A stretch of DNA of 64,000 nt, taken from NCBI GenBank assembly GCA_031763025.1, contig JASSKH010000038.1:2273001-2337000 (forward strand). Reading direction: 5' to 3'. The notes under the pieces were generated by a model, which saw only the letters and a list, made by a program, of their open reading frames with translations, searched no databases and was not told where the DNA came from. A program made the translations under genes and the position numbers. Source of the DNA: Macrocystis pyrifera. Lineage: Eukaryota; Sar; Phaeophyceae; Laminariales; Laminariaceae. This document shows, in pieces, positions 521-61,175 of this stretch (its first letter is position 1; each line of letters begins with the position of its first letter).

Positions 521-2344
521 GGTCCACGGAAACCCCAAAAGCCAGATTTTCTATTTTCTTTTGTGCTTATACCTGCCTGTGTATCTGCCATCACACCGTA
601 AGCTTTTGACGCTGAGGCAGCCACGGTACGAAACTGCATGCCCGTGACGGCTGCGACTCGTGCTTGTGTGCGTGCGTGTGTGGGCAAGTGGTCATGCCAT
701 CCTGATACACAAGGAGCTGGCCGATTCCAATTTACCCTTCCTCTGAACTTCAAGAGTACCCGCGCAGTACAGCAGCGGTACAACAGCCCCATGAACACCA
801 ACGAACCTCGCACGTGCTCGTATGATATACATGCAAAGGAACGCCTATGTTTCCCCTGTCAACTCGGTGACCCCCGGGAATCCAAGTCAACCACATCCCG
901 AAGGGGAGCCTAGTGCATCCCCAGTACTTCGTATATACTAGGGTTTGAATTCATAGTTCGTATTGAAAGAACAGCTTGTAGGAAACAGTCGGTGCTGCCT
1001 GCCTGGCCTTGCCTTGCCTTGCCTTGACCTGCGCTTCCTTTCTTCCTTTCTTCCTTTCTTCCGCGCGCCGCAAATCCGCTATATACAAGTATACATATGA
1101 GAACTCCTTATTTTGACGGGGGGAAGTACAAATCAAGCTCTGCACACCCTTTACGGCATAGTTATACGCTGATTTTAGTATATTTTGTCAATGTGTTATT
1201 AATAGCCGGTGGCAACCCTCGATTTCGGTTAATGTTTTTGGGGCGGGATTAGGGTGCCTGGTGGGCCGTGCGGGCGACCAATTATATCCCCGGGGGTCAA
1301 AATCTGCAAGAAACTGGTACCACAGGTACAAGTGCGACTATGATATGTAGGCGAGATTTAAATCACGCCTACGGGGACGTTCACCAGCCATCTTGCGTTT
1401 CGCATTTTCCCGTTGCAGCTGTCCTCTCCAGCACACCGACCGACTCCCACGGACAACAACAATCGAGCCCTGCGGCAGCAGCGTCTTCGCTGAATAAATC
1501 CTAAACTCAACAGTACAGTAGGTCAAAATCATTTCAAGTCCCGTCGCTGTAATCCTTACAGCCCTGAAGACCGACACCCATCACTAACCCCAACCCTAAC
1601 CCTATCTCCGCAGAGCCTGAAACCGGGGATGGCTCGTAAATGTCCCCGTAATCGTGATTTCAGTCCGCCGCGTAGTCGTGTTTATTAGTTTCCCAATCTG
1701 GGGGGCTCGGGTCCGGACGGGATCAGGTCATCAGAGTGGGGCTAGGATGCCAAGTTGAACCAGGGTGGATGTGTACAAACTTTTACTTTGCCGAGGTTCA
1801 GTTTGGAGTGGTCAGGTCCGGGTGGGATGAGGTCAGCGTGGGATCAGGATGCCAAGCTGGAGCAGGGTGGAGGCGTGCAGAGTTTTAATTGCATGCAATT
1901 CCCGGTTTGCAATTAGGGCTCCCATACGTACGTACGCACAAGTATGATGGATGAATACGAATTCGAGTACCACAAGACAAGAGTACACAGCAGTATCCAA
2001 AGTACTACAAAGTATCCAAAGTACCGATTTTATAAATTTTGAAATACGTCAGCTGTGAGTTCGACTGATTAAATAGTTGATACGGTAAAATATACTGAAA
2101 AAAGTACCGGAGGACACCACAACACCCGCAATTTTGGAGACAAATTACTTGGAATTAGTACCGGGTATAATTTAATACGAAGACAACAACACGATTGGCT
2201 CGTGGGGCTCAAAGTATACAACAGGGTACACCTTATATGATTCTTACGTACCTGGTGTGTACTGCTGAAAAAAAGTTGTGCTTCGTTGCTGGAGATTGCT
2301 GCCATGTTCATAGAAATCGCCGACAAGGCAAACCGGAGCAGGAA
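521..2344. other. Gene-free stretch
   Basis: No convincing exon. It holds a CCTTG/CCTT-rich pyrimidine run near 1007-1060, a short telomere-like run at 1584-1604, and near 2047-2085 a fragment (GTCAGCTGTGAGTTCGACTG) that also occurs in the foldback element at 55.8-56.4 kb. Confidence 0.5.
1584..1604. repeat. Short CCCTAA telomere-like run
   Basis: Three degenerate CCCTAA-type units. The same hexamer recurs at 32.56 kb and in the longer array at 32.77-32.99 kb. Confidence 0.6.
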
Positions 2345-3009
2345 AAGAAAAGGCAAAGCAAAGCAAAGCATGGCAAAGCAACGCGAAGCAAAGCGAAGAA
2401 ACGCTAAGCAACGCGAAGCAGCGCCAAGCAACGCGAAGCAGCGCCAAGCAACGCTAAGCAACGCAAAGCAACGCCAAGCACAACGCCAAGCACAACGCCA
2501 AGCACAACGCCAAGCAACGCTAAGCAACGCTAAGCAACGCTAAGCAACGCTAAGCAACGCGAAGCACAACGCGAAGCAACGCGAAGCAACGCGAAGCACA
2601 ACGCGAAGCAACGCGAAGCAACGCGAAGCAGCGCTAAGCAACGCTAAGCAACGCTAAGCAACGCGAAGCACAACGCGAAGCACAACGCGAAGCAAAGCGA
2701 AGCAACGCGAAGCAACACGCGAAGCAACACGCGAAGCAACGCGAAGCAACGCGAAGCAACGCGAAGCAACGCGAAGCAACGCGAAGCAACGCGAAGCAAC
2801 GCGAAGCAACGCGAAGCAACGCGAAGCAACGCGAAGCAACGCGAAGCAACGCGAAGCAACGCGAAGCAACGCGAAGCAACGCGAAGCAACGCGAAGCAAC
2901 GCGAAGCAACGCGAAGCAACGCGAAGCAACGCGAAGCAACGCGAAGCAACGCGAAGCAACGCGAAGCAACGCGAAGCAACGCGAAGCAACGCGAAGCAAC
3001 GCGAAGCAA
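2345..3009. repeat. 10-bp tandem array (GCGAAGCAAC)n
   Basis: Degenerate units (AAGCAACGC, AAGCACAACGC and similar) from about 2345 pass into about 28 uninterrupted perfect copies of GCGAAGCAAC from about 2731 to 3008. The unit is one base longer than three codons, so the minus strand stays open in all three frames and each frame reads the same decapeptide, LLRVASRCFA. The frames are therefore a by-product of the repeat and not evidence of genes. Imperfect units sit on the left and perfect ones on the right, beside the KCTD-like gene. Confidence 0.95.
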
Positions 3010-3169: not shown

Positions 3170-3587
3170 TTATTGCCCGCAAAGACACTGCACACACAGC
3201 AGCAGAAGCAGCCACAAAGCGTTGCACGGCGGTGCTCGCCTCTCCCTTCGCCGCGCCGCGCCACGCCACAACACCACAGAGCAGCACGAAACAGAACAGA
3301 CCACGAAGTAGATAGAACTCTAGGCCGAAGTGGGGCTAGGTACCACACAGAGGTGCCAACAGCACACACTACACACTGCAGAATGAGCAGCATGGTATGA
3401 GCAGTAGCGTAAAGCAGCAGCCGAAGCAGACAGTATTTCCATGTGACAAACATCATGGCAATATGCGAGTACAATACTAGGACCAGTATGATAACGGGGG
3501 TCAGCACGTACGTACAGCAGCAGGTCCAGGTCCTGGTAAAAAGCAGCACTCGTAGTGTAAAATTAGTACAATAGGCCTCCGACTCAC
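3170..3587 (-). other. Last intron and possible terminal exon of the KCTD-like gene
   Basis: A consensus donor (AAG then GTGAGT) ends the main exon at 3588 in phase 0. One good acceptor is the pyrimidine/CTG-rich tract ending in GTGTGCAG at 3188; the next codons reach TAA at 3172-3170 after five residues. Another acceptor ending TTCTGCAG near 3379 would give a long, cysteine-rich and unlikely tail. The terminal exon is therefore unresolved; transcript reads would settle it. Confidence 0.45.
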
Positions 3588-5006
3588 CTTGCCAACCGAC
3601 TCTAGCACGAAATTTTCGTTGCCAGGGAAGAAATAGGTTGTCAACGAGCCGAAATCGTCTCGCTCGTCCTCCCGCACGAAGATACGAAACCTGCCGATGT
3701 CCGTTCCCTCCGCCAACACGGCTCCGAACGACGACTTTGTCGGGGGCCAAGGCCAGCGCTTCATCCGGAGCACCTCGATGATCTTCGCGAAGCAGTAGTC
3801 GTTGTACTGCACGAAATATCGCCCCTTCGTGTCCCTCACGAAGGGAGGCGTGCGCTTCTCGTTGCTGTGATCGAACATCCTCGCCAGAATCGAGTCCGGG
3901 CACCTGCACAGCGTCGACCTACGCGTGGCCATCACCGTGCCCCCGATGTTGAGCTCTACGATGTCGTCGTCGATGCCCTCCCTCCCGAAGCCCGCCGGCG
4001 CCCCTGCGAACTCCGCCACCGAGGCAATCTCTCGATCGTATTTTTGACGCGCCGTCCGAAACTCCGCGTCCGCCATCTCAAGCGCTATCTCTTCCACAGC
4101 GAACGCCGTGGCGACGGACTGGCCGTATCTCCGGGCGTCAGCCTCGGGGATCGGAGGCGGGGGGATGTCCTTCGGCTTAACGCGCTCCTTTGGTGGCGGG
4201 GGTCCCGACGTCCGGCCCTCGTACACATGCGGCCAGAGGCCTAGCACGAGCACGAGGTGGTCGAAGCTTGCCTGCTCCTCGGAGGTCAGGGTGGGCTGCT
4301 CTATCGTCTTGCCCGGCTTCGCGTTTCCAAGTTTGACGAGGAAGCCCACGACTTTTCGGAAGACGGCGGGAGAGACGTCGACAAACACACGCCCGCGGGA
4401 GTCTCGCGGCAACCTCCCTTCCCATCTCCCCCCAAACACTAGCGCCAGGACCGAGTCCTCCCCGCGCACAAGGTCCGTGCGGAGCACATCCATGTCGGTA
4501 CCCCCTACGTTGAGCTCCACGATAGGACCCCCACCCCCAGTAATGCCGAAGGAATAGGCGGCGTCGCGCCGCTCTTTCTCCAGTGATCTCCACTCCTTTT
4601 CCAGCTTGTTCCAGTTGTCGTGGTGGCGCTTCGACGCCTGCTTAATCTTCTCCTGCAACCCGACCTGGGCCTTCGTGGAGAGGCCTCGTGCCTCGCCTCG
4701 AGTATCCAGGAAGCCCTTCATTGCCGCAGGAGAGTCTGTAAAAAGCAGCGGGAGCAGTCAGTAGTCCGTGCGACAATAGCAGACGATAACCCTATTAGGA
4801 GTAGTATAATAACGTCTGCTGTTTACGTGAGTACAGCAGCAGCAGCAGGAGTCGTGGCGAAAAGAAGCACTCGTATGCTAAAAGCAGTATAAATACGTAC
4901 ACGTAGCAAGACCTCTCGACTCACCGCTCTCGAAAATATCATCCGTCGCGGTAGGAAGGAAGCTGACACCCCTCTGCATGCTCGCCGCATTTGTTCGGTC
5001 CTTCAT
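3588..5006 (-). CDS. Tandem T1/BTB (KCTD-like) protein, exons 1-2
   Basis: Probable cytosolic protein with two potassium-channel-tetramerisation (T1/BTB) folds. Such domains mediate oligomerisation and often recruit cullin-3 ligases; the partner here is unknown. Exon 1 is 5006-4925 (ATG, 27 codons plus one base) and exon 2 is 4735-3588; the 189-base intron 4924-4736 has GTGAGT and TTTTTACAG ends and the phase matches exactly. Residues (spliced numbering) are: a short N-terminus, a charged coiled-coil-like segment at about 50-85, a first T1 domain at about 99-165 (VELNVGGT), a proline-rich linker at about 205-225, and a second T1 domain at about 286-355 (VELNIGGT). There is no transmembrane segment, so it is not a channel. 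410 residues are supported; the tail is spliced on from below 3587. GC is higher than in the flanks and the frame is intact, so this looks like a working host gene. Confidence 0.85.
4736..4924 (-). other. Intron 1 of the KCTD-like gene
   Basis: It begins GTGAGTCGAGAGG and ends GCTTTTTACAG on the minus strand. Its body resembles the start of the next intron (below 3587): both read GTGAGTCG, then ACGAGTGCT, then a CTGCTGCTGTAC block at similar spacing. This suggests the two introns share a source. Confidence 0.75.
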
Positions 5007-9326: not shown

Positions 9327-9498
9327 AGTAAAAAGTTTCTATGTAATACATGGAAACAACGTAATGAGCACCCAATTGTTGGAGGTGTCTCTATTAGGAG
9401 TAGGAACGGTGCTCCGTCTCGAAAGGGATGCGTGGTCAATGGTCAAATGACTAAGGCAAGCAACAAACGAGTACGCCTCGCCCCACCCCCCCCCCCCC
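9327..9498 (+). mobile_element. 5'-truncated LINE copy with poly(C) tail
   Basis: About 170 bp matching the 3' end of the LINE at 25.39-25.55 kb (AAAAGTTTCTATGTAATA, then CTCCGTCTCGAAAGGGATGC) and ending in a C run at about 9486-9498. CGTCGC at 9321-9326 is repeated right after the C run at 9498-9503: a target-site duplication inside the gypsy integrase frame. 5' truncation plus a 3' homopolymer plus a duplication is the signature of target-primed reverse transcription. Confidence 0.9.
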
Positions 9499-18810: not shown

Positions 18811-19680
18811 ATATGTCTGCACACGGAATACATACAAGGCGCTTCGCTCAGGAAGGAAAGGCACATCAAATTATGCGAAGCCGACAGAGGTCCATGATTG
18901 AATATAGATTTTTTTCGTGATTGATTGTAGTTTGCAAACTGGCGACTTGATAATGCCCAGATTCCCGCCGCCATGCTTCAGGCGAAAACAGCTCGGACGC
19001 CACATACGCTTCGCGTCGCGGGCGGTTTTCCGCTACGGTCGCTTACACGTCGTACATACGTACATACGTCAGGTATAGGGTACTTATTTTATTTTTTCGA
19101 CATGCTCCATGTATGTACTCGTATACTTGTATACGACAGATAAAGCACAGCACGCCACAGCAGCACCGCAAAAACAATGAAAAAGAAACCGAAACTTCGG
19201 AAAGAAAAAAATCCCCGTCCCCTCTCGTGTAATGATTTCCTGCCTGATTGGAACATCTTACACCGGTCAAAAGGAAAAAATAAAAATAAAAATAAAAAAC
19301 AGCAGAGCTTCTCTCCCAGCCTCGTACGCCGCCCGCCCCTCTCGCGACCATCTCGCCACCGATTCAGTCCGGGTAAAGCTTTCTTCCCTCTCTTCCACAA
19401 GGAGCGCCGTCGCCCGCTTTGCGTGAAGCCCGGTGCTCACCGTGGACCTCGTTCGCCAGTTCGACAATGTTAGTGCTCAGACTGCGTACGTCTCTCTGTA
19501 TAGTTCATATTGGTCGCAAAAATAAGCACCAACTGAGTTTATTTGCTAATCAAAACGATCCTTACAAACTCCTATATAGTATAACCGGAACCACACTAGG
19601 AGCCCAGACAGAGCTCATTCATGCTTCCCTTGTGTCTCGAGGCACACGCGATGCCCAGCCACGAAAACGGCGACCGCGCT
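18811..19680. other. Gene-free stretch
   Basis: Only short frames. An A-rich segment (AAAATAAAAATAAAAATAAA) lies near 19276-19298. Nothing recognised. Confidence 0.45.
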
Positions 19681-19699
19681 CCCCCCCCTCTAAATCTGG

Positions 19700-19742
19700 A
19701 TGGGTTGGCGTCGAGTGGCGACGACGCTGTAAAACAAGCCAG
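19700..19742 (+). promoter_or_regulatory. Conserved 5'-terminal module of the LINE
   Basis: CGTCG-AGTGG-CGACG forms a five-pair hairpin. The 500-bp elements have CGTCG-GTTGG-CGACG and, in a diverged copy, a TCGTC/GATGA stem at the same place. A shared 5' end in autonomous and non-autonomous elements often carries promoter or ribozyme function (as in trypanosome ingi/RIME); that role is inference here. Confidence 0.55.
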
Positions 19743-19904
19743 CAGACACTAAACATGCAATGTACAGACTGCTCCTTCTGGCACAAATGCCACATAGACC
19801 AGACCAGACATAGACGCTACGCAAACAACAGCTCAGAAACCAGACCCACCGGAAAAGCAAACACAACACAGAATACACAATTCACCGTTATTTCACATAA
19901 AAAC

Positions 19905-20575
19905 ACAAACCAGATTTAGACATGAAATTACTCAACTAACATTTTTTTTCCCCCATACCGAAACGCAAAAAAAAAACCGGATTCAGACATGAAACAGTTG
20001 AGCTAACCAGTTTTTTTTCCCTATATGATTACAAAAACCGGATTTAGACATGAAATTACTCAACTAACACAGAAAATTTCAACATACCGAAGCGCAAAAA
20101 AACGGATTTAGACATGAAACAATTGAACTAACCAGTTTTTTTTCCCCATATGATTACAAAACCGGATTTAGACACGAAATCACTCAACTATTAATAACTA
20201 CTACTTTTTTTTTTCTCGTACCAAGAACACAAAAAACAGATTTAGACGTGAAACAATTGAATTAACCAGTTTTTTTCCCCCTTTATCATGACACAAAACC
20301 GGATTTAGACATGAAATTACTCAACTTACTTTTTTTTTTACCGTACCAAAAACGCAAAAAACAGATTTAGACGTGAAACAATTGAACTAACCAGTTTTTT
20401 TTTTTTCCAATATCATAACACAACCTGGATTCAGACATGAAACTACTCAACTAATAATTTTTTTTTTTTCCGACACCGAAACCCAAACCAGATTTAGAAA
20501 TGAAACAACTGAACAAACCATTTTATTTTATTTTTTCCCCATATCCGAACCTAAACCAGTCATAGACTTGAAAAA
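19905..20575 (+). repeat. Tandem 60-66-bp monomers, alternating A and B types
   Basis: About eleven monomers, each with GATTTAGACATGAAA and a T homopolymer. They alternate: type A carries TTACTCAACTAA (about 19913, 20040, 20164, 20301, 20430) and type B CAATTGAACTAACC (about 19980, 20104, 20237, 20363, 20491). The true unit is a dimer of ~125 bp. The array sits inside the LINE between its 5' end and ORF1. Confidence 0.88.
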
Positions 20576-21436
20576 GTATAATAGTTTATCCCATATCATA
20601 ATACTGGTAGTAATGGCATAAAATATAGACCAAAAACCGAGCATGAAGGTGGACCGCCTCACATGCGCACACATAGATACAGCATGGTCACCCCAACATG
20701 TTCAATTCACATGAAGGTTGGGTCTTGTGGTAAGATACCCGTAAAACTATACCGATTTCCATTGGGCGGTGGAAATCTGGTCTGACATTATTCCTAAAAC
20801 CCCCGACATTTGGTGCACATACCAAGCGCTAAATGAAGGGGAGGGGTGGATGGTGCATGACATTAAGTCAAGACCTATTATACTCATGAAACAAACACCT
20901 TGCATTTGATCGACCACATGGCCTGAGAGAAGGAGCACCAAGCGGTACGTAGATATCTTCATATCTTGAAGGATAGAAGCCGGTACAAAATGTGGGGGGA
21001 TTGTTGGCCAAGCTTTCGGCAGTGAAGGTCTACTCGGGAGCATTGGTGGGGTAGTTACCCATGGTGAAACGTACATATGACGGAGAAAGCGACGTACGGG
21101 GCATCCCGATGTGTGAGTAAGACTTTGTGTTATGCAAGCCGTCCTTGAACCTTACACGGTGAAAATGACCTCCCTGGAGGAAAGTAACCGGTACAGCAGC
21201 GGGGCAAGAAGATAGAAAATACGATCGTGGGACGCCAGGATGGTTACCATGCAGATCGCCTGACACAAACGTGGGGTACTTGTGTTAAGGGTGTTGAACT
21301 TGGCTCCAGGCTACGAGCCCGTGTTGGAGACACTATTTAGTGTGGTAGCGCCGGCAAAAGAACTGAAAGACACCAGACCCTCAACGAGTACTAGGATTGA
21401 GAAGTACCAGTAACTTGAACACTTCCCACTACCACT
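20576..21436 (+). other. 5' untranslated region of the LINE
   Basis: About 860 bp without a convincing frame, between the monomer array and the first LINE frame. Confidence 0.55.
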
Positions 21437-21802
21437 ATGAACACAAACAAGCTGGAGATATTCTCGGAAGAGATTAGGAGAAAGACGGTGAGGAAGGGTG
21501 GGTGGAGAAAGAAAGGTTGGCAGGGTAAAGTACTAGTAGTGCTGATATTTGAAGTTCCTAGCGACATGACGAGGATTGAGTTCAAGAGGAAGTGCGACGA
21601 AGTAGGACTGTATTGCTTTGCAATAGGAAACGTAGAACGAGAGGGAGAACACTTTCGAGTCACTCTGAAGCTGAAAGCGAGCATGGAGTGGCAGAGGATA
21701 GAGACAGAAAAAGTGTCGGCATGGGTTAGAAGAATAGGATGGAGAGTATGTATAGCTAATGGAATAACGAAACTAAGACGTAGTCCTAGGGTGAATGGGT
21801 GA
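21437..21802 (+). pseudogene. LINE ORF1-like frame
   Basis: 121 residues, basic and lysine/arginine rich, beginning MNTNKLEIFSEEIRRKTV. In LINEs the first frame usually encodes an RNA-binding chaperone. I see no zinc knuckle or RRM, so this assignment rests on position and charge only. A second basic stretch (from 21845) runs in another frame straight into the endonuclease start and may belong to ORF2. Confidence 0.5.
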
Positions 21803-21959
21803 ATGAAGGTATAAAGGCAGGAAACAGCAAGTGGCTCAAAGGGAATGGGGGAGAAACATAGGAGCGCAGAACAAGCAGACAAGAACAGGAACGGAAACGA
21901 AAATAATGCTCAGAGAAAAGATAACAGAAATACTCGTGGCGACAACGGAGAAAGAACAG

Positions 21960-23039
21960 GTAAGACTAGAGCGGATAGTGAAACGAAAAGGAGGTTGAGA
22001 ATAGGATCATGGAACGTATGTGGCTTCGCCACGGAAGAGCGCAAAAGAATCGAAATTGCCGAACAAGTAAGTAAGCGCGACCTAGACAGTGGGAATTCAA
22101 GAGTCGTGGGAGAAAGAAGGAGGGGAGATAGGATGCAAAGTTGGAGAGTACGCATGGATAGGGAAAAAGAGGAAGGGACAGAATAGCAAGAATAGGGGGG
22201 GGGGGGGTGTGGGGTTCCTAGTCAAAGAATACCTGTGTGACATAATAGAGGTGATCAAAGACACTAAATTCGACGAAAGCATATGGATTAAGATTCCAGG
22301 GGAGCGGGGAGCGAGAGATTACTTCTTAGGAAACATGTACATGCCCCCAGAGTCGAAGAATACGATAAACGATATACAGAGGAAGTTCGGAGAAGTAGCA
22401 GTAGATGTACAGAAGTATAAGAGGCAAGGAGAAGTAGTACTAGTGGGAGATTTTAACTCAAGAATTGGGAAGGCAAGCAAACTGAATGAGAACATTGGAC
22501 AACATGGGGAAGTAACAAAGAATAAGAATGGGGAAGAGATGTTGAAGTTCCTCAAGTACAACGAGATGAAAACGTTGAACGACAGAGTAAAAAAGGCAGA
22601 ACCGGAATGGACTAGACAGTGCATACACAAGGAAGAAAACTCTATCCTTGACTTTACAGTAGTAGAAAATGGAAGTGGTAAGGAAACGGAACTACATGTA
22701 TGCGCAGCGGACATAGGAACTACAGATCACTGTCTAATATGGACAGACAGTCAACAGACGAGAGTTATCAAACATAGAAGGGGTAGGAAAATGTATCGAT
22801 GGAGAATAGATAAACTAAAAGTGAAAGAGAAACGGGAAGAGTTCCAAGAAGAGATGGTCAAAAATTCAGAGAAATTTTCCCAGCTGTTGGAAAGAATAGG
22901 TACAACAAGGAACGATATAGAAAGGGATGATGCAGGAGCTAGGATAGTAGAAGGATGGGAGCAGTTGGTCAAGACCACAGCAAGTAAAGTAATGGGGTGG
23001 AAGTTGAAAGTACAACAAAGCAGTAAAATGGTGGGATGA
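21960..23039 (+). pseudogene. LINE APE-type endonuclease domain
   Basis: Exonuclease-endonuclease-phosphatase fold that nicks target DNA for priming. It starts at RIGSWNVCGF (about 21996) in one frame and continues from about 22089 in another after a small deletion, with GVGFLV, VLVGDFNSRIG (about 22435) holding the metal-binding Asp and Asn, SILDFTV (about 22640) and TTDHCLIWTD (about 22720) with the catalytic Asp-His. A run of G at 22195-22206 lies inside the domain. The frame is lost again near 23040. Confidence 0.88.
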
Positions 23040-23499
23040 AGAAGTGAAAGAGGCTATAAGAGCAAGGAGAAAGGCACACGCAAGGTATACATCGAGTAAA
23101 ACTTCGACAGGGTGGGAGGAATATGCTATAGCTAGAAAGAAAGTAAAAAAGATGGTAAAGGATATGGAAATACGTAGTAAATAAAACGAATGAAGACTTT
23201 GAGGGCGGGATGAAGCAGATGTGGGTAGGGATAAAAGGGATACTTGGCAAACAAGCAGGAGAGGCAGACACGGGAATAGCTATTCTAAGAGCACAGAACG
23301 GTAAAATGGTTGTAGTTCGAAGGGGAAAAGGGAAGTACTAGTAGAGCATTACCGAAAGCTAGGAACACCCACAGCCAACGAAACGTTCGATGCAGAATTC
23401 GAGAGAAGGAAATCAACGCGTGGGCAGAGGCGAACGTAGATACATCAGAAAGGGAAGACAGTGGTTCGGGAGGGTTACAGAGAGAGTTCACAAGGGAAG

Positions 23500-24480
23500 A
23501 AGTAAAGAAGTGTGTAGCTAAACTTAAGAATAGAAAGGCAGTAGGGGCAGACCAAATAGTGTATGAATTTATGAAGTACGGGGGAGAAGGAATGCTTACC
23601 ATGATGGTTATGTTGTATAACTGGATATGGAAAAACGAGTACGCACCTAGGAGGTGGAGAGAAGGATTAGTAGTAAATTTATTCAAGAAAGGAGATAAGG
23701 CTGACCCGGGGAACTATAGAGGGATAACGCTACTAAGCACAGTAGGCAAAACATTTGTAAGATTTTGAACGATAGAATGGGAACGATGATGGAGAAGGAA
23801 GACAAAATAAGCGAAGGGCAAGCAGGGTTTAGGCCAAACCGTAGCTGCGTAGACCATGTGTAAACCTTAGGTAAGATTATTCAAGGTAGGAAAGACGCGG
23901 GACTAACAACGTACTATTTCTTTCTAGATGTGCAGAAAGCCTGCGACACAGTATGGAGAAATGTATTGTGGAAAAAACTGTGGGAAATAGGAATCAGAGG
24001 AAAGATGTGGAGAATGATGAAAAAGATGACGGAATGCGCGGGAAGTGCTGTAATGCTGGACGGGGAAATATCGAAGTATGTTGATATTTTACAAGGAGTT
24101 GCACAGGGATGTACGTTGTCACCTAACTTATTCAAGATATATATTAACGACCTGATAGTAGCAGTCGAGGAAGCAAGGCAGGGAGTCACGGTAGGGGAAA
24201 ATACGGTGTCGGGATTGATGTTTGCGGATGACTTCGTGGGGATATCAAAAAAACACCCGAAGGATTGCAGAAACAAATAGAGAAGGCGCTAGAATACACC
24301 AGGAAATGGAGGGTGACGGCGAACGTCAAGAAATGCGCAGTAGTTGTTTGCAACGAAGATAAGGTGATCCCGGTAAATTTTAGTTGGAAGTGGGGAGAAG
24401 ATGAATCGCCGATCGTAGACCAGTATACATACCTTGGCGTAGAGATCTCAAAAGACTGGGTAAGGCACAAGTAGGCAAGA
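23500..24480 (+). pseudogene. LINE reverse transcriptase domain
   Basis: Copies element RNA into DNA at the nicked target. Fragments in order are: KKGDKADPGNYRGITLLS (about 23685-23745), a frame break, GQAGFRPNRSCVDHV with a stop after it (about 23815), FLDVQKACDTVW (about 23920; motif A with a conserved Asp and an unusual Cys), GVAQGCTLSPNLFKIYINDL (about 24098-24157), and FADD at 24221-24232 (catalytic Asp pair intact). Another break follows at about 24275, then the thumb segment to 24474. The domain is recognisable but cannot be translated in one frame. Confidence 0.9.
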
Positions 24481-25529
24481 TGGATGCGATCCTAACAGAC
24501 CCGAACCTTGACAATAGGATTAAGAGATGTATCTTGATGAATGTGATAGTACCAAAGCTAGAATATGCAGGAGAAGTATGCGAAGGGAACGCGAAACTCG
24601 TAAAACAGTTGGAAACAGTACAAATGACAGCAGCCAAAAAAATCCTAAGATGCTCAAGTACGACTAGTAATACATTATTAAGAGCAGAACCGGGAATGCG
24701 CCCATTCAAGACAAATAGAGACATGAGAAAGTTGAACTGGCAAGATAAAGTAAGGAACATGCCAAAAAAGAGGTTGCCAGCCATAGTTGATAGAGCTGTA
24801 TGGGAGAAAGTAACAAAAGGGCGAGCTGGAATAAGGTGGGATGTCGCAGTTGAGAAAGTATGGAAGGCTATAGGGGGAAACCAAGAAAAGATGATGTCCG
24901 CCGGGATGTTTGGGAGGTACAAGGCAGAAGTAGAAGAAAGGATAGAAAGAAGGGAAAGGCTAGCGCTAAGAAACAAGGTGGAATCGGAAAAACAGTTAGA
25001 GATATACGGGGGATTGAGGGAAGAAATAGGAATGAAAACGTATTTGCATGGCCCAATGGACTTCGCGAAAACGCTGAAACTGCGCTTTCGTGTAGGGGAC
25101 CTGGACCTGCCAGAAAGAAGAAAGAGGTACACCAGTAGCCGGGAGGAGGAGGAAGTAGACGCACAGATGTGCCCGTGTGGCAAAGCAATAGAGAGTAGAA
25201 CTCACATAGTAGGAGAATGTGAAATATACAAGGAGGAACGGGATGTGTTAGAAGAGGAGATGAGGAAAATAGACGAATGTGACATGGAGGAGTTTGATAC
25301 TACAATGAATAGCAGCGAGAAAACTATCGCTATCCTAGGAGATAGATGGTGGCCACAGGAGGCCAAACAGGAAGGGGATAAGATTAGCAAAAAGTTTCTA
25401 TGTAATATATGGAACCAACGTAATGAGCGCCCAATTGTTGGAGGCGTCTCTATTAGGAGTAGGAACTGTGCTCCGTCTCGAAAGGGATGCGTGGTCAATG
25501 GCCAAATGACTAAGGCAAGCAACAAATGA
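24480..25529 (+). pseudogene. LINE ORF2 C-terminal part with Cys-His motif
   Basis: The longest intact LINE frame here (349 residues), joined to the thumb after a stop near 24474. It is basic and helical. From about 25170 it reads CPCGKAIESRTHIVGEC, the C-x-C-x-H-x-C motif common near the C-terminus of LINE proteins, thought to bind nucleic acid. The frame runs into the conserved 3' end of the element and stops 21 bases before the end of the C tail. Confidence 0.82.
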
Positions 25530-25550
25530 GTACGCTCCCCCCCCCCCCCC
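25398..25550 (+). repeat. Conserved 3' end of the LINE with poly(C) tail
   Basis: It contains CTCCGTCTCGAAAGGGATGC, then TGACTAAGGCAAGCAACAA, TGAGTACG and 14 C. Truncated copies exist at 9327-9498, 33453-33630, 34249-34330 and, inverted, 47400-47475. The last ~75 nt align with the end of the 500-bp family. Confidence 0.9.
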
Positions 25551-28043: not shown

Positions 28044-28137
28044 TGCCCCCCCCGTGCCGGCATTGCAGGGGTGTGAGGGTCTGTGATCACACGACTACGG
28101 CCATGCATAACGTGAGTACACGCCCCCCCCCCCCCCC
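28044..28137 (+). mobile_element. Poly(C) element B, 5'-truncated copy
   Basis: It starts at a C7 run, then CGTGCCGGCATTG, then ACGACTACGGCCATGCATAA, and ends GAGTACACG plus 14 C. Only the last ~75 nt of the family remain. Both borders are C tracts. Confidence 0.85.
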
Positions 28138-28680: not shown

Positions 28681-29185
28681 GGGGGGTGCGCTCGATATGA
28701 TGCACGGCCATAGTCGTATGACCATAGACCCTCGTATCCCTACAATGCCGGGACGGAGCACGTCGGGTTTTCACCTACCAGGCAGACATTGTTTGCACCA
28801 AGCGCGAAGCACTCTGAGGTGTCCGGCGAGTCGCATGAAGGGTGAACTGCATCCCACTAAGAACCGCTTTTGAGGCGGATTTTCTTGCATATGGGTGACA
28901 GCTTCGATGAGCTGATTTAATTTCCGGTGTGGCTACTTCCAGAGACAGCAATGGGAAAACTATGTGACTGTCTCTTGGGTGCCTTAACATAGACACTACG
29001 TGATGCGATCATTCCCATTGTGCGGAGTAAAGGTTCTCCACCCCGCACCAATCATTTAACTCGACCACCAGCTGTGACCGACCGCCCCAAAAAAAAACGA
29101 AAACTAATCGGTACCCTGGTTGTCTAGCTCAAGTAGTGAGCGGCATTTTTTACAGTATCATCACCAACCGACGACAACCCAACCT
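28681..29185 (-). mobile_element. Poly(C) element B, full length, inverted
   Basis: 505 bp. The minus-strand 5' end near 29185 reads GGTTGGGTTGTCGTCGGTTG, next to a C10 run (the G run at 29200-29210). The 3' end reads CATATCGAGCGCACCCCCC. It is collinear with 33748-34241. It has no coding frame, and shares the first ~45 and last ~75 nt with the LINE. Confidence 0.87.
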
Positions 29186-29198
29186 ATATATATTATAT

Positions 29199-29325
29199 GC
29201 GGGGGGGGGGAGGTATGGAGGGAGGGAGGGGAGCGAGAGGATGGAGTGGGGGGGGTGTGGGAGGGGGTGAGGTGGGGGGGAGAGGGTGATGTAGAGGGGT
29301 GGGGTAGGGTGGGGTGCGGGGTATG
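29199..29325 (+). repeat. G-rich minisatellite
   Basis: Long G runs (GGGGGGGGGG, then GGAGGGAGGG and GGGGTGGGGTAGGGTGGGGT) on the plus strand, prone to G-quadruplexes. It lies directly at the 5' end of the inverted element B. Confidence 0.85.
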
Positions 29326-31009: not shown

Positions 31010-31230
31010 ACCCATGCCGCGCATGGCCGTAGTCGTATGACCATGGACTCTCGCATCCCCACAACGCCGGGACGGAGCACGCCGGGTGTTCGCCCGACCA
31101 GACGGAAATTTGCTTGAACCAAGCGTAAAGCACCCGTGAGGTGTTTCGGCGAGTCGCATGAAGGGTGAGCGAGCTGCATCCCAACAAGAACCGCTCGTGA
31201 GGCAGACTTTTCTTGCTTTTGGATGGCAGC
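31010..31230 (-). mobile_element. Poly(C) element B, old partial copy
   Basis: On the minus strand it holds the segments GCGACTCGCCGAAACACCTC, GCTCCGTCCCGGCGTTGTGG and CATACGACTACGGCCATGCG. The C tail is gone, so it is older than the other copies. Confidence 0.75.
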
Positions 31231-31570
31231 GTACGGCATGGGATCTCATTTCTGGGGGTAGCTTTTTTATGGCTGGAGAGGCTCCTGAACTGAGGACCTA
31301 CTACCTCAACTATATACCCCCAAACATGTGTTCAATCCTGTAATGTTTTCGTCAGAGTTTTATTCGCTGCTGTACGCCTACCGCAAGGATGAGACACACG
31401 GCAGGGGTGCACCTCAGTTTTTTCTGGGGATTCCCTCCTTCGAGGAACTCTCTACCTTGCCGTAAGCCTAGCCTTATCAAGAACGAAAGAGTAAGCTGAC
31501 GAACAATCCCATCGCCCAGGCATATAGCGAATATTTTACGCTGTTAAACACAGGTCGTTCCTATTGCTCG

Positions 31571-31730: not shown

Positions 31731-32773
31731 GAATCCCCAAATAATTTCAGCCTGTCTCGTTTTCTCATTCTCTTTTAGATATTGTGTACTTTTTCGGTTT
31801 ACGGACCCCCCCCCCGTGGGTCAGAAACAGTTTGCCCAAAAGTGCTACAGCACTGCCTCTGCCCGTGCTGTGGCGTGAGTCGTGAAAAACAAGTATTACC
31901 AATTCTCACCAATTCTTGCGAACGTCGGTGCATGGGGGAGACATGAGAGGAGCTTCACCTTTTAGGAAAGGAACCTGATACCCATGACTCACAGGTACCA
32001 TATCCTCTCTGGCCGGGCATGATATCTCCACCGAATAACGCGCGTGTTGCACGCGGCACAGCGTCCGTTTCCCCGCGGCTAGGGTATCATCCGATGGTGG
32101 AGGCGTTCTGCGATAGAGGTTCGCCCTAATTCTGCTGAGGCTCCTCACTTAAGGAGCTCCATATCTCACCCAAACGCTGACTTAAGCAAAAATCAAATTG
32201 CATCCCGATGAACAATCCCACGGCCCAAATATACCAAAAACGTCATCGTTCGAAACAAGATTGACTTTCCGACGATTTTGGGTTGAGGAACCCCGTTATT
32301 CAGAAAGTCACAAGCAAGCGAAACAGAGGCAAGCCGCATCACCTCAGGCGTCTCCAAGGAAGCCGTCGGGAGCAGCGGACGCCTCGCTCGACACCCCGAG
32401 GAACCCCCCAGCTGGTGCCTACCCTGCAAGTACCGAAATCCCTCCACTATTGCCTGCTGAAGTGGTGACGCCTACTCTACGGTGGAGTTGGACCTACTGT
32501 GTGTTTTTTTCTGAAGCTCCTCCCTTGGTTTAGGAGCTTGATACATACCTCACCGTAGCCCTAACCCTATCCGATTTTGTGAAAACTCAGCCCGATGTCC
32601 TACCGCAGGTAGGTATGTCACGAATGGTAGTGGAAAATACTACCAGGTATTGCTGTAACTGTATGTAACCCAAGGAGATTCGGTACATACAGAGTTCCTC
32701 AGTCGAGGAGCCCCCTTGTTCTTCGGCAAATATTTTCGCCAACTAGTGCTACCCTTATCGTAGCTGGCCTCTC
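31731..32773. other. Gene-free stretch
   Basis: It contains a C9 run at about 31807-31815 and a telomere-like GCCCTAACCCTATCC near 32559. No exon recognised. Confidence 0.45.
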
Positions 32774-32990
32774 TTAACCCTCTCTAACCCTCTATTAACC
32801 CTAACCCTAACCTTTAACCCTCTCTAATCTCTCTTAACCCTAACCCTAACCCTCTCTAACGCTCTCAAACCCTCTCTATCCATCGCTAACTCTCTCTATC
32901 CATCTCTAACCCTCTTTAACCCTCTCTAACCCTCTCTGACCCCCTCTAACCCTCTCTAACCCCCTCTAACCCTCTCACACCCTCTATATT
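32774..32990. repeat. Interstitial telomere-like array
   Basis: CCCTAA hexamers (TAACCCTAACCCTAACC) are mixed with a longer variant, CCCTCTCTAA, over about 215 bp. The right half is nearly all the 10-mer variant. It suggests an old internal telomeric seed that grew by slippage. Confidence 0.85.
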
Positions 32991-33029: not shown

Positions 33030-33230
33030 GGTTCTTCATGCGACTCGCCCCTCATACGACTCGCCCAACACCTGACGGCGCTTCGCGCTTGGTGCAAGCA
33101 ATGTCTGCCTGGTCGGTGAAAACCCGACGCGCTCCGTCCCGGCATTGTAGGGATGCGAGGGTCCATGGTCATACGACTACGGCCATGCATGATAATGAGT
33201 ACACCCCCCCCCCCCCCCCCCCCCCTCCCC
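33030..33230 (+). mobile_element. Poly(C) element B, 5'-truncated (cluster member 1)
   Basis: It contains CATGCGACTCGCCC, GCTTGGTGCAAGCAATGTCT, GCTCCGTCCCGGCATTGTAG and ACGACTACGGCCATGCATGA, and ends ATGAGTACA plus a long C run (33206-33225). Confidence 0.9.
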
Positions 33231-33240
33231 CCCCGGCGAG

Positions 33241-33450
33241 GTTCTTCGTGGTATGCAGTTCAACTTCCATGTGATTCGCCCAATATAACTTCACGTTTCG
33301 CTTCACGCTTGGTGCAAGCAAGCAATGTCGCCTGGTCGGTGAAAATACGACGTGCGCCGTCTCGGTATTGTAGAGATGCGAGGGTCATGGTCATACGACT
33401 ACGGCCAATACAGCAACCTAAGGAATGAGCACACCTCCCCCCTTCCCCCC
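33241..33450 (+). mobile_element. Poly(C) element B, 5'-truncated (cluster member 2)
   Basis: It starts behind the C run of member 1. It carries CTTGGTGCAAGCAAGCAATG and ATACGACTACGGCCAATACA, and ends ATGAGCACACCT plus C-rich tail. Confidence 0.85.
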
Positions 33451-33452
33451 TG

Positions 33453-33630
33453 CAACAGAAAGTACATCAGCAAAACGTTTTATATAACAGATGAAAACTA
33501 CTAAATGAGCGCCCAACTGTTAGAGGTGCCTCTATTTGGAGTAGGAACAGTGGTTCGTCTCGAAAGGGATACGTGGTCAATTGTCAATGGTCAAATGACC
33601 AAGGCAAGAAACGAACGAGTACCCCCGCCC
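33453..33630 (+). mobile_element. 5'-truncated LINE copy (cluster member 3)
   Basis: It starts behind the C-rich tail of member 2. It aligns with the LINE from ATCAGCAAAACGTTT through GTCTCGAAAGGGATACGTGG to ACGAGTACCCCCGCCCC. Confidence 0.87.
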
Positions 33631-33633
33631 CGA

Positions 33634-33720
33634 CGTGCTCCGTCCCGGCATTGTAGGGGTGCGAGGGTCGATGGTCATACGACTACGGCCATGCATGATA
33701 TCGAGTACACCCCCCCCCCG
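33634..33720 (+). mobile_element. Poly(C) element B, 5'-truncated (cluster member 4)
   Basis: It starts CGACGTGCTCCGTCCCGG right behind the tail of member 3 and ends ATCGAGTACA plus C9. Confidence 0.88.
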
Positions 33721-33747
33721 CGCGCTATATTTTGTACCCGGTATATA

Positions 33748-34241
33748 CATGGGTTGGATTGCCGTCGGTTGGCGACGACACCGTGAAACATGCCTCTCAC
33801 TGCGTGAGCTAGACAACCAGGGTACCTTTTTTTGTTTTAGGCGGTCACCACGGCTGGCGGTCGAGCTAGATCATTTTTGTGCGGGGAAAAGCTTAACCCC
33901 GCACAAGGGGAATGATCGTATCACGTAGTGTGTACCAGGTACATGGTAAGGCACCAACGGGGCACTTACGTAGTAGACCCTTTGCTGCCTCTGGAAGTGG
34001 CCACCCCAGAAAAACATCAATTCATCGACGCTGTCATCCATATGCAAGAAATCCGTTTCGAAAGCGGTTCTTGGTAGGATGCAGCTCACCCTTCATGCGA
34101 CTCGCCCAACACCATACGGCGCTTCGCGTTTGGTGCAAGCAATGCCTGCCTGGTCGGACGCGCTCCGTCCCAGCATTGTAGGGATGCGAGGTTCTTTGGT
34201 CATACGACTACGGCCATGCAGGATAACAACTACACCCCCCC
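33748..34241 (+). mobile_element. Poly(C) element B, full length (cluster member 5)
   Basis: About 494 bp. The 5' end TGGGTTGGATTGCCGTCGGT matches the LINE 5' end. The 3' end is GGCCATGCAGGATAACAACT, then ACA plus C7. It has no frame conserved with the other full copy (28681-29185). It lies about 27 bp behind the C9 tail of member 4. Confidence 0.88.
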
Positions 34242-34248
34242 GGCCCCC

Positions 34249-34330
34249 TCGCTCCGTCTCGAAAGGGATGCGTGGTCACTGGTCAAAGGACTAAGGGTAG
34301 CAGCAAATGAGTACCCCCCCCCCCCCCCCC
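34249..34330 (+). mobile_element. 5'-truncated LINE copy (cluster member 6)
   Basis: It starts GCTCCGTCTCGAAAGGGATG directly behind the C tail of member 5 and ends AAATGAGTAC plus ~17 C. Confidence 0.9.
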
Positions 34331-34339
34331 CCTCCCCCT

Positions 34340-35740
34340 CCCCCACCGTTGCCTTGATTAGTGTTTTTGCTCGGCCTGCCGCGCTCCCTGAGAAAGGTTC
34401 ACTCTCTCCAGCACTTGGGCTGATCTCACCGGCGATGCCACCACCGCTAAACCGGAAAGAGAGGTATTTATACCGTATCACCCTCTTCTAACGCGTTTTA
34501 GACCCCTAGGGCCCACGATATCAACTATTCCTCCTATTCGGCGTCGAGGCCCATCAGGTACTCCTGTACGTGCGTTCGACGTGGAGCCTCTGGTTTAGTA
34601 GACGAACTCAGATGCCCTGCGGTCGGATCCCGAGCGCGGTGGTTATCGAACGAGGACGGGCGACAAACCGCTCTCCAGCTCGCTCGAGCGGGGAAAATCG
34701 AGTTGCGCTCTCTGAGGCGGGGCCCAGGGCATCGCTGAACAGCACAAAAGGGATGAATACGTTGGCGACGATACGTGGGCAGCTACCATGAACTCGAACG
34801 CGCCCTGAACGCCAGCCGTCCCGTAGCTAGCCGACTCCGGTCACGGTCAGGTGGCGCCTCGGCGAAAGAGGTCTGCAATCTGCACGGCGCCCCTCACCGC
34901 CGCCCACCTCCTCTCCTTACTCGGTCATGGGAAGCCAGTCCTCTCCCGCGGGTGGGGAGGTTGGCATTCTCCCGGCCACTTCGAGCCGCACGCCACGCGG
35001 GACCTCGAGTCGGCATGCCTTGGTGCGAAGCGTCCCGCACGCTGCAACATGCACCGGACGTGCACAAGCCTTCCGTGGCCGCACAGAATGGGTACCCGTA
35101 TACGATCGTATAGGTGGTTGTCTTTTGACTCTCCAGAAGAGCGACATAGCGCCAGACTGAAGACGCATGAAGACGCATGCTGTCATAGGTGTAACCAGAG
35201 TTATGGACCGAAAACGAAAAGCAGTTCGGTCGATTTTTCGGTTTTTCACCGAATTGTCGATCGGCTTCGGTCGGTTGTTTTTTAGGTAACCGAAACTGAA
35301 AAAACCCGAAAAAACCAAGAGAAAAAAAAACGAGATTGTCGGTCAGTTTTGGTCGGTCTTCGCAAATTAACCGAAAACAAAAGGGCGGTTTTTTGGTTGG
35401 ACAAAAAAGAAGAAAAAAAAATGTTGATGCTGGATTCAAGACCATGAGTGTATATGTTACAGCATTTTTTGTCAAAAGTGTGTCTGATTGACAAGGATTT
35501 TCAGCTGAGCAACTACCCAATATCAAAAGAATAGCATCATTTTGTTTTTGCTTTTACCTAACCTATACATCGGGCTGCACTTTTAATTATTTCGCAAGGT
35601 CAATTTTTTGGGTGAGTTACAGAGGTACAGAGCTCCGTTTGAAGTGAGAAGCAGCCTTAGAGTATTAGTTGAGCCCCTACCATGACGCGCATCCGAAGAC
35701 TTGGGTATAGATGACGTAGATGCACGATAATTTGCAGCGC
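34340..35740. other. Gene-free stretch
   Basis: GC-rich in 34500-35100, with overlapping frames on both strands and no recognisable domain. The A/T-rich half at 35200-35480 has repeated CCGAAA and TCGGTC words (CCGAAACTGAAAAAACCCGA), probably a degraded repeat. Confidence 0.4.
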
Positions 35741-36122: not shown

Positions 36123-36719
36123 GTGATTTCGCATACCGCAGGTATACCCTCGGCAATACTTCCGCAAGGTGCAAGGTTCTCTGACGGAGCGACGGCATCC
36201 CTCCTCTATTGCCCAGCCCCAAACCTATTGGTCGTATCCGCTGTCGGCGGACCCCCGTGCGCTTCCCATGGCGCACGTCGTATGGCCCGATGATATGTTT
36301 CGCACAGTCGCTGCACGGCGCTTGCGTTTGGGGTTTTGCTGAGGGATCGTGCCGCGCCAGTCTCTTCTGTGTGACGTCCTGCCCGTCTCGGCCCGTGACA
36401 CTCCCGCGACTAAAATCTACCCCTTCAGCCGGAACGTTCCCGCTCAGGAGGCAGCGCTTAGCTGCGGCAACTCCACTGTCCCTTACCACCTGCCTGCCGA
36501 TACTGAGACCACTGGTCTGTTGAAGAAGTGGGCCTATCTTCGTGTTTTACATGTAAAGCCGCATTCGGATATGTGGCCGGACGTACCCCACTGGTCATGG
36601 CTCAAGGGATTAGGCTCACACGGGCAGGAAAATGCTGGACATCACTCGCGCCGTCTTCCCACCCCTTTGTGACCGTAGTAGACGCCCCCCCTTCCTATCT
36701 AGGCTTTCATCGTCCGCCT
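36123..36719. other. Gene-free stretch
   Basis: A plus-strand frame at 36349-36672 has even composition but no domain I recognise. Confidence 0.4.
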
Positions 36720-37262
36720 CGATACCATCTACGCCTCTACCGTATGTGCTTGTCGTTGTGTTGTTGGAGCGCGCTCCCCCTGCACCCCGTGGCAAATGCT
36801 GCAAGTATATGTCACGCGCTCCCCCCTCCTGGCCCTCGTGTCCCTCGTGGACCCCCCCCCCCCCCTGCTCTTTCAGCTGGCATCGCTCGCCATGCGAGAC
36901 CGTCAGCGCCTCTGCCGTGTGCCGGTAACCTCGTCGCTGTGCTGCCGAAGTGCTCACCTCCACTACCCCTTTGTAAATGCTGCGTATATGTCACGAGTTT
37001 CCCCCCCCCGCGCGCATTGTGGCTCTAGGGGATGCCCCCCCCCCCCTCAGCCGGCATCGCTCGCCATGCGAGACGTCAACGCCTCTAGCGAATACCGGTA
37101 GCCTCGTCGCTGTGACTTTCTTCCACCACCCTGTGGCAAATAAACCCCACATATCACCCCCCCCCCCCCCCCCCCTCCCTGCCGCCCAACGTGGCTCTAG
37201 TGGATGGCCCAACCGGCATGGCTCGCCTCGCGAGACCGTCAGCGACTCTGTCGTACCACTCT
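36720..37262 (+). repeat. Family C: four tandem units ending in poly(C)
   Basis: Units of about 130-160 bp share GGCATCGCTCGCCATGCGAG, CGTCAGCGCCTCTGCCGT and GGCAAATGCTGC(G/A)TATATGTCAC-type ends followed by C runs (about 36848-36861, 37000-37009, 37038-37050, 37157-37178). Each unit begins just behind the C run of the previous one. It is a different sequence from elements B and LINE but has the same poly(C) ending. Confidence 0.8.
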
Positions 37263-38292: not shown

Positions 38293-38411
38293 CCCAAGCA
38301 ATGCCTGCCTGGTAGGTGAAAACCCGGCGTGCTCCGTCCCGGCATTGTAGGGATGCGAAGATCTATGGTCATACGACTACGGCAATGCGTAACAATGAGT
38401 ACTCACCCACC
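38293..38411 (+). mobile_element. Poly(C) element B, 5'-truncated
   Basis: It starts behind the C12 run (GCCCAAGCAATGCCTGCCTG), continues GCTCCGTCCCGGCATTGTAG and CATACGACTACGGCAATGCG, and ends AATGAGTACTCACCCACCCC. Confidence 0.87.
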
Positions 38412-47399: not shown

Positions 47400-47475
47400 G
47401 GGGGGGGGCGGAGGGTACTCATTTGCCGCTTGCTCCAAGTCATTTGACCATTGGCCACGCATCCTACACGAGGTC
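47400..47475 (-). mobile_element. 5'-truncated LINE copy, inverted
   Basis: On the minus strand: ATGCGTGGCCAATGGTCAAA, then GCGGCAAATGAGTACCCTCC and a C9 tail (G run at 47399-47408). It is among the shortest copies of the LINE 3' end here. Confidence 0.87.
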
Positions 47476-59492: not shown

Positions 59493-60500
59493 GTGGCGGA
59501 TCTCGAGCCGGGGGATATTCTCGGTGTCGCCTGCGCCCCACTGCTGAGCATCCCGCTGGACGTTTTGCAGCAGAACAACCGCGCCCCCAGCCCTCCCTCC
59601 GGACTATCTGAGGTGTCTCCGGTCTCAGCAGCTACATCCTCCCCCCTCGCGTCTCCAGCCTCGGCCTCGCCTGCACTGCTTGAGCGTTTGAGCCCAGAAC
59701 AGCGAGTTTCGTTCCTGCGCGTCTGGGCGCGTTTGCCGTTCCATCTACGAGCGGTGGCTTTTGATCTTCATGGCACGGACTGGACCCCTGGGGCCACAAC
59801 TGGGGGATGTTCTCTGCGAATTTCCCGACGTTTTCTCGAAGTCCAAGTCGGATTTTGGCTCCTGCTCGTTGATACCTTTCGTGATTTCGGTCCCGGAAGG
59901 AAGCGCTCCGGTCAAGTCCAGGCCGCACCGCATCAATCCCACCCTGGCCAACGGAGTGGATGCCACCTTGGACCAGTACCTCGCGGCAGGACTGATCCAG
60001 CACTCGACCTCTCCGTACTCGAGCCCGCTGGTGGTCATCCCGAAGAGGCGTTCGGATCGCTGTGAACTACAAGAAACTCAACCAGATCAGCAGCCTCAGC
60101 CAGCTGCCTATCGCGTGTGGACAAGTCCTCGACTCCTGGGGAAGGGACGGGTGTTGTCCCTCTTCGATTTGGTATCCTCGTTCCACCAGATTACCGCGCA
60201 CAAGGACATCGTCCCGACGGCATTTTGCACTCCCACGGGCCTCTACAAGTGGCTCGTCATGCACCAAGGTAGCAGCGCGTCGCCCGGCTGGTTCGTCAAA
60301 GGGGTTAACGATGTCATTAAAGGTCTGGCACAGGTGGCGGCCTACCTCGATGATGTGATCGTTTTCGACTATTCTGATCCGACGGCCCAAGTCAAGACGA
60401 AACGAGCCCTCTTCGAACGCCTGTGCAAGCACAACCTCAAGCTCTCCCCCCCGAAGGCTCACCTCGGCGCCACGGACGCAAATTCTGGGCCACTAAATTT
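59493..60500 (+). pseudogene. Gypsy reverse transcriptase
   Basis: Pre-RT sequence (LSPEQRVSFLRVWARLPFHL) in one frame, then from about 59790 LGDVLCEFPDVFSKSKSDFG and AAGLIQHSTSPYSSPLVVIP, a frame change near 60050 (VNYKKLNQISSL), SLFDLVSSFHQI (about 60160; catalytic Asp), TAFCTPTGLYKWLVM, and AAYLDDVIVFD with the YLDD box at 60343-60354. Catalytic residues are still present, but the frame is broken. Confidence 0.92.
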
Positions 60501-60541
60501 CTCCCGCGGGCATACGCCCAAATGCGGAAAAAGTTTCGGCT

Positions 60542-61175
60542 TTGATGAAAATGCCCATGCCCAAGAACCTCAAGCAGGTCCGTGCGCTGATGGGCGGCGT
60601 GGGATATTCTCGCAAATTCCTGCCCGACCTGTCCAAACGGATACGCCCTCTTACCGCTCTTCTCCGGAAGGGGGTTAAGTACGTATTTACCCCGACTATG
60701 GAAGTTATTGTCCGCCAAATCCTCACCGAGCTTGCTGCCCCACCGATTTCGGTCTTCCTTGGCTGGGACGCCGTAGCCGACGGCTCCTGCCCCTTCCACG
60801 TGTACTGCGACGCCTGCATCGACGGCTTTGGTCCCGCGCTCGAACAAGAACAACCGGACGGCTTGGTACGACCCATTGCTTTTATCAGCTGCGCTACCCT
60901 CGATTCTGAGCGGCGCTGGACCCCGCTGGACGTGGAAGCTGGCAGCATTGTATGGGCCATCAAACGACCCCGAGGATACCTATGGGACGAATCTTCGCTT
61001 ATTTTCGACCCACAAAGCGCTTGAGAGCATCGCCAAGTAGGGGACCACACCGCGCGAGTCCAGCGGTGGCTCGAGTTCCTCACCGCCGTCGACTACACCC
61101 TCGAGCACCGCCAGGGCAGCGCCAACGGAAAAGCTGATTTTCTTTCCCGCTTGCCGGAGCCCGCCACAGAACACG
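60542..61175 (+). pseudogene. Gypsy connection and RNase H domains
   Basis: LKQVRALMGGVGYSRKFLPD is the RT connection. HVYCDACIDGFGPALEQEQ (about 60797) has the first RNase H Asp; ERRWTPLDVEAGSIVWAIK has the Glu region. After a break near 61025 the end of the domain follows in another frame, with VDYTLEHRQGSANGKADFLS (about 61090). Confidence 0.9.

Follow-up and report, generated by a model that had tools for sequence, protein, structure and literature searches.

The 64,000-nucleotide window of Macrocystis pyrifera DNA analysed here contains a nest of six retroelement copies at 33034-34344. We put at roughly 0.65 the probability that this nest was made by successive insertions of a LINE and of its non-autonomous partner, family B, both C-tailed, with each insertion occurring by TPRT at a C tract and leaving a new C tail behind.

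All six members of the nest lie in the forward orientation, in the order B, B, LINE 3′ end, B, full B, LINE 3′ end. The first, B1, is a 5′-truncated B (33034..33203) with a C22TC8 tail at 33204-33234; B2, also a 5′-truncated B (33240..33437), starts 5 bp behind this tail and ends in a C-rich tail with T interruptions. L3, a 5′-truncated LINE 3′ end (about 33452..33622; tail C5GC4, CCCCCGCCCC), follows 1 bp behind the B2 tail. The 5′-truncated B4 (33631..33709) begins in the L3 tail and carries a C10 tail, directly behind which lies B5, the full-length B of 515 bp (33720..34234; tail C7GGC5). The core that B5 shares with the LINE begins near 33750, about 30 bp behind the B4 tail. The last member, L6 (34251..34313), is a 5′-truncated LINE 3′ end located 2 bp behind the B5 tail, and its C19TC5TC5 tail extends to 34344. 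The gaps from the preceding C-rich tail to the internal 5′ ends are 5, 1, 0, 0 and 2 bp, so that all five fall within 0-5 bp; B1, at the upstream edge, does not follow this pattern, and the 20 bp before it contain at most 3 consecutive C. Truncation points differ among all the truncated members. The first-pass annotation had described six same-strand elements (three truncated and one full B, two LINE 3′ ends), with 5′ ends directly or up to about 30 bp behind the previous C tail, and both statements were confirmed.

Seven more copies are present in the window. Four of them were found behind C runs at the further sites that the annotation had listed (28044, 38293, the LINE itself and, inverted, 29185-29210), all of which are real: the truncated Ba (28054..28122, forward strand) lies directly behind C8 and has a C15 tail; the truncated Bb (38295..38402, forward strand) lies behind C13GCCGCCC and has a C-rich tail; the nearly full-length LINE (about 19689-25536, forward strand) has C8TCTA at its 5′ edge and C14TCTA after its 3′ end; and the inverted full-length Bc (28688..29200, reverse strand), read in its own sense, lies behind C10 at 29201-29210. 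The LINE 3′ end La (9327..9476, forward strand) has the 5′ flank ACCCCGTCGC and the 3′ flank A-C13-GTCGC. A second LINE 3′ end, Lb (47408..47464, reverse strand), has a C9 tail and no C run directly upstream. The remaining copy, Bd (about 31018..31420, reverse strand), was dropped before junctions were counted, owing to an uncertain 5′ edge and a missing C tail.

Of the 12 junctions retained, 10 are preceded within 20 bp by four or more consecutive C on the sense strand, compared to a mean of 0.80 in 20,000 random draws from the same window (p at its floor, 5e-5). The excess persisted at the junctions that are not inside the tail of another element (5/7; null 0.47, p = 0.0001). Runs of at least 7 C were present within 35 bp upstream of 7 of the 12 elements, in their own sense, while no G run of at least 7 was found within 35 bp upstream, in element sense, at any of the 12 junctions. 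The claim that these elements insert into C tracts is therefore retained as a preference and not as a rule, since B1 and Lb (2/12) are not preceded within 20 bp by as many as 4 consecutive C. Chance clustering of insertions in C-rich DNA is scarcely credible in view of the random draws from the same window and of the protein data below, in which residues farther from the junctions were not enriched; in its favour, the region is locally C-rich and a degenerate, interstitial telomere-like array of the CCCTAA/CCCTCTAA type (32768-32985) ends about 45 bp upstream of the nest.

Repeated units at 36690-37200 in the window contain several C runs, 9-19 long, at which no B or LINE copy is present, and a long AAGCAACGCG tandem array lies at 2344-3009 (63.6 copies). 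An ORF at 3501-4721 on the reverse strand harbours two BTB_2 stretches and is likely a host gene. The ORF at 59761-60678 encodes a partial reverse transcriptase (RVT_1) of another retroelement.

The flanks of the three LINE copies outside the nest share sequences that are likely target-site duplications (TSDs) of about 9-16 bp, with p values of 0.02-0.10 each in a non-positional test. The flanks of the nearly full-length LINE have GCT-Cn-TCTA in common, with C8 before and C14 after the element (p 0.029); those of La have A-Cn-GTCGC in common, with C4 before and C13 after (p 0.095); and those of Lb have AATGTGAC in common, just behind the C9 tail (p 0.021). The C run is inside the likely TSD at the LINE and at La, and outside it at Lb. 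No TSD beyond the C run was visible at Ba, Bb or Bc, and none was readable within the nest. A match at B1 (p 0.037) was discarded, as it is merely the start of the next element.

The LINE has a tandem-repeat 5′ region, followed by endonuclease and reverse transcriptase regions that are interrupted by several stops and frame changes. As in other LINEs, it carries an endonuclease of the exonuclease-endonuclease-phosphatase type, encoded by an ORF at 22089..23039 (forward strand) that matched Exo_endo_phos_2 with 29.2 bits (cut-off 27.4) and Exo_endo_phos with 24.9 (cut-off 24.5). A reverse transcriptase domain was detected in a piece at 23864..24277 (forward strand; RVT_1, E 1.8e-12) and in the homologue P0001 (RVT_1, E 8.3e-21), which also matched R2 and LINE-1 chains in the PDB; the second reverse transcriptase piece in the window gave no RVT_1 match. 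The C-terminal ORF (24480..25529, forward strand) extends the coding sequence to the very 3′ end of the element, with its stop codon within ATGAGTAC and the C tail directly after it. Copies are 5′-truncated and have a fixed 3′ end with a simple tail, Bd without a tail being the exception. A total of 103 proteins are related to the C-terminal ORF, those named being from Ectocarpus sp. CCAP 1310/34 (5), Sphacelaria rigidula (2) and a Parasphingorhabdus MAG (1). The protein labelled as belonging to this MAG (P0002) is 86% like the LINE ORF and is probably algal DNA binned with a bacterium. The 5′ region contains tandem repeats of about 63 and about 125 bp (19903-20535), which are possibly promoter units of the LINE; a search of 19670-20300 for known RNA families gave one chance-level match only. 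A run of 13 G is present on the sense strand within the endonuclease ORF (22195-22207).

Family B is tied to the LINE by both of its ends. The 3′ ends of B and the LINE align over about 60-70 nt (blastn alone recovers 35 bp at 83%, E 7e-4), and the 5′ ends align over about 45 nt; B5, Bc and the LINE have different leaders ahead of the shared 5′ core. As both ends are common to the two, B is probably the non-autonomous partner of the LINE, and it may, judging from sequence, be a LINE derivative whose interior was replaced. B has its 3′ end in common with its partner LINE, as in stringent LINE/SINE pairs. Its 5′ part is LINE-like and showed no sign of a tRNA, 7SL or 5S origin in the scans that follow; we term B a non-autonomous partner and not a SINE. 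A tRNA gene scan of the window with bacterial settings found none. Rfam gave no match at the gathering score in the whole window, 5′ ribozyme included, and no match at E ≤ 1 in 33700-34340, which includes B5. RNAalifold returned, as a candidate conserved 3′ stem-loop, only a small helix of 5 pairs, weak in energy (-3.15 kcal/mol) and without any two-sided change. Scans for DNA relatives gave no match in the viral_contigs and genome_contigs collections.

Frame 1 of B is open, and copies are consequently read through in many predicted proteins. These proteins were used as a proxy for DNA elsewhere, C runs being read as proline (CCN); codons are read in this way and junction edges are rough. The protein sets comprised the best 120 by score of 616 B matches, a ranking that favours doubles, and 120 listed of a set of 144 matches. 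An automatic rule applied to 310 predicted proteins detected 285 three-prime ends and 36 head-to-tail events (20 from B to B, 9 from B to LINE, 5 from LINE to B and 2 from LINE to LINE), some of which are weak or duplicates (P0193/P0224, P0113/P0114). The gap was 20 aa or less in 29 of the 36 events. The 120 listed of the 144 matches contained at least 13 events, including one pair that represents the same junction and one event whose gap spans 245 aa; antisense neighbours were absent from this list. Further chains were identified by eye in P0034, P0040/P0052 and P0101. P0040 and P0052 have near-identical LINE-to-B junctions and continue past the C run in different reading frames, which would fit a difference in the length of this run between two contigs. 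A loose antisense scan gave 17 proteins with matches, nearly all of them weak and of low complexity; under stricter limits 4 of the 310 remained, with two strong LINE pieces (P0085 and P0122). By eye, P0122 looks like a B inserted into an antisense LINE body and P0085 like an internal LINE inversion.

A rival origin for such same-orientation chains is segmental or tandem duplication, driven by recombination in which C tracts or the copies themselves are the partners. Similar elements do lie side by side, and C runs could mispair. This origin is nevertheless very improbable: element types alternate in the nest, the truncated copies all start at different points, no pair agreeing in both truncation point and flank was found there, and the 29 close events in the proteins include 25 distinct pairs of type and truncation. 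The recurrence of same-orientation chains with many different truncation points thus goes against the segmental duplication that the first-pass annotation had named as grounds for rejecting its proposal. That annotation had also expected chains to be built without limit, and this part was not upheld: no copy of B or the LINE sits at 7 of the window's 16 runs of at least 10 C or G (a comparison made by reading), and chains in the proteins are two or three elements long, reaching four only when short tail fragments recognised by eye are included.

A genome-wide excess of C at 5′ junctions had been predicted; the protein proxy shows an excess at 78 junctions outside the window. Proline made up 117 of 632 residues in the 8 positions before 5′ junctions, compared to 193 of 2682 farther off (2.57x), while the ratio for glycine was 0.76x. 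There were 96 prolines in the last 8 aa before B junctions (41.5 expected, n = 61, p = 5e-5) and 23 before LINE junctions (11.0 expected, n = 17, p = 0.005). At least 2 prolines were present in the last 8 aa at 34 of the 78 junctions, against a background of 14.2%, and 44 had fewer. These values were obtained with stricter edges and a larger set than two edge methods that were discarded. The first used BLAST-extended edges, which ran over proline-rich flanks (proline in the last 5 residues 0.060 for B, that is no excess, and 0.160 for the LINE); the second was rough and gave 0.194 near and 0.04-0.06 far for B, and 0.083 versus 0.07-0.10, no excess, for the LINE. The proline excess thus varies with the placement of the edges, which are still rough. 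At the other end of the elements, PP occurred within 10 aa after 84 of 109 3′ ends among the matches listed, against a background of 7.7% of 16570 windows. The tail is thus nearly universal and the C target a preference.

Serial insertion is not the only way to obtain such a nest. The reverse transcriptase could leave the 5′ end of one RNA and jump to the C-rich 3′ end of another, so that several elements are laid down at once; template jumping of this kind is performed by the R2 reverse transcriptase. It would yield head-to-tail order, a single orientation and C at the junctions, with no TSD expected around inner elements, and no such TSD could be read. The ages of the members do little to decide the matter. 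B2 and B4 are 72% and 95% identical to the majority over the whole copy, but B4 covers the conserved 3′ part only; over the B4 columns, identity is 94.9% for both B1 and B4, 88.6% for B5 and 85.7% for B2, and over the L6 columns it is 87.3% for L3 and 90.5% for L6. The divergence gap thus shrinks over matched columns, where B1 and B4 are equally diverged as a single event would have them, and this weakens the argument from age; an apparent, slightly greater divergence of B2, B5 and L3 relative to B1 and B4 is only suggestive of unequal age inside the nest. The stronger argument comes from isolated copies in ordinary DNA, which also follow C runs: template jumping leaves unexplained the C runs before Ba, Bb, Bc, the LINE and La in non-element DNA, as well as the proline excess before the first elements of other loci. 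Serial insertion by targeting is therefore favoured, and we regard a single template-jumping event as unlikely, while taking it seriously.

Under serial insertion at C tracts, the LINE protein would recognise the 3′ end that LINE and B RNAs have in common, as their shared sequence suggests. It would nick the G strand of a C tract, or find it nicked, and the resulting 3′ end, a G run, would pair with the C-rich end of the RNA and prime reverse transcription. Slippage on the homopolymer could then lengthen the tail; lengthening from C4 to C13 at La and from C8 to C14 at the LINE was observed, and drift of C runs after insertion is an alternative source of it. Frequent 5′ truncation produces a short copy that begins right at the C tract and ends in a fresh one. 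This new tract would be a target for a later copy; the orientation of the copies is the same, as expected if the G strand serves as primer. An enzyme that cuts C/G tracts is one putative source of this layout, which a G-run primer annealing to the C tail would produce equally well.

C tracts might instead be a passive hot spot, fragile or nicked, at which LINE machinery without any cutting preference uses whatever 3′ end pairs with C-rich RNA. The incomplete preference (2/12 and 44/78 junctions without clear C) and the short C run that was enough at La (C4) agree with this reading, which is not fully separable from serial targeting. We consider it improbable, because the LINE has an endonuclease domain of its own and the likely TSDs of 9-16 bp at three copies fit staggered cutting. 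Targeted serial insertion might be extended, more tentatively and with some doubt on our part, to a LINE that targets the very C/G homopolymer it writes at its own end, and that would act with its partner as a self-seeding, orientation-locked array builder across brown algae.

If true, this shows how a retrotransposon can create landing sites for itself out of the simplest sequence there is. The system would then offer a clean test of the shares that the endonuclease and the pairing of nicked strand and RNA tail have in LINE target choice, and it would explain a share of the C tracts and of the truncated repeat clusters in brown-algal genomes. It is also relevant to annotation, as many predicted brown-algal proteins are read-through of B and LINE elements.

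Alu and L1 insert into the A-rich tails of older copies, and the elements described here are like them in having self-made homopolymer landing pads, with C instead of A. No C-tailed LINE or C-tract target was found in the open-access literature, and absence from print is not claimed.

The closest relatives by description are in Ectocarpus, where RTEX-N1_Ec32 is an abundant non-autonomous element of about 600 bp with a 3′ end conserved with autonomous RTE-X LINEs (PMC12477816). In both cases a brown alga has a short partner with a LINE-conserved 3′ end, and the window LINE has Ectocarpus homologues. The 5′ region of RTEX-N1 was not traceable in the Ectocarpus study (PMC12477816), whereas the 5′ end of B resembles that of the LINE; RTEX elements are compared here by their description only. 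The parts of that paper used here do not mention a C tail or a C-tract target for the Ectocarpus RTE-X elements. By analogy, and from this paper alone (PMC12477816), an RTE-X affiliation is suggested for the window LINE.

Stringent LINE/SINE pairs have a common 3′ tail with a simple-repeat end, and slippage during reverse transcription has been discussed for UnaL2 (PMC3747384). B is similar in having the 3′ end of the LINE and in ending in a simple repeat. The repeats given for such pairs in the portion of the source drawn on are poly(A), TAA or TGTAA (PMC3747384), while here the repeat is C and B has the 5′ end of the LINE too.

Nesting has its counterpart among green algae in Zepp of Coccomyxa and in Zepp-like elements of Chlamydomonas, whose insertion into existing copies gives nested tandem arrays of mostly 5′-truncated 3′ ends (PMC8226300, PMC3446292). 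The likeness lies in nested arrays of mostly 5′-truncated 3′ ends within one algal genome. Zepp, as described in the text consulted, is L1-type, with clusters confined to one centromere-like site per chromosome (PMC8226300, PMC3446292); unlike it, the nests here are spread over several contigs and combine a LINE with a short partner, and their common landing sequence is a C tract. Non-LTR retrotransposons that target microsatellites also exist (PMC5035012), and a preference for simple repeats as targets is common to them and to the elements in the window. Those families are, by the account drawn on, strictly site-specific, whereas here the preference is loose and the target is a single-base tract of the kind in which the element itself ends. 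Zepp and the microsatellite-targeting LINEs are thus precedents, and the C homopolymer is the unusual part.
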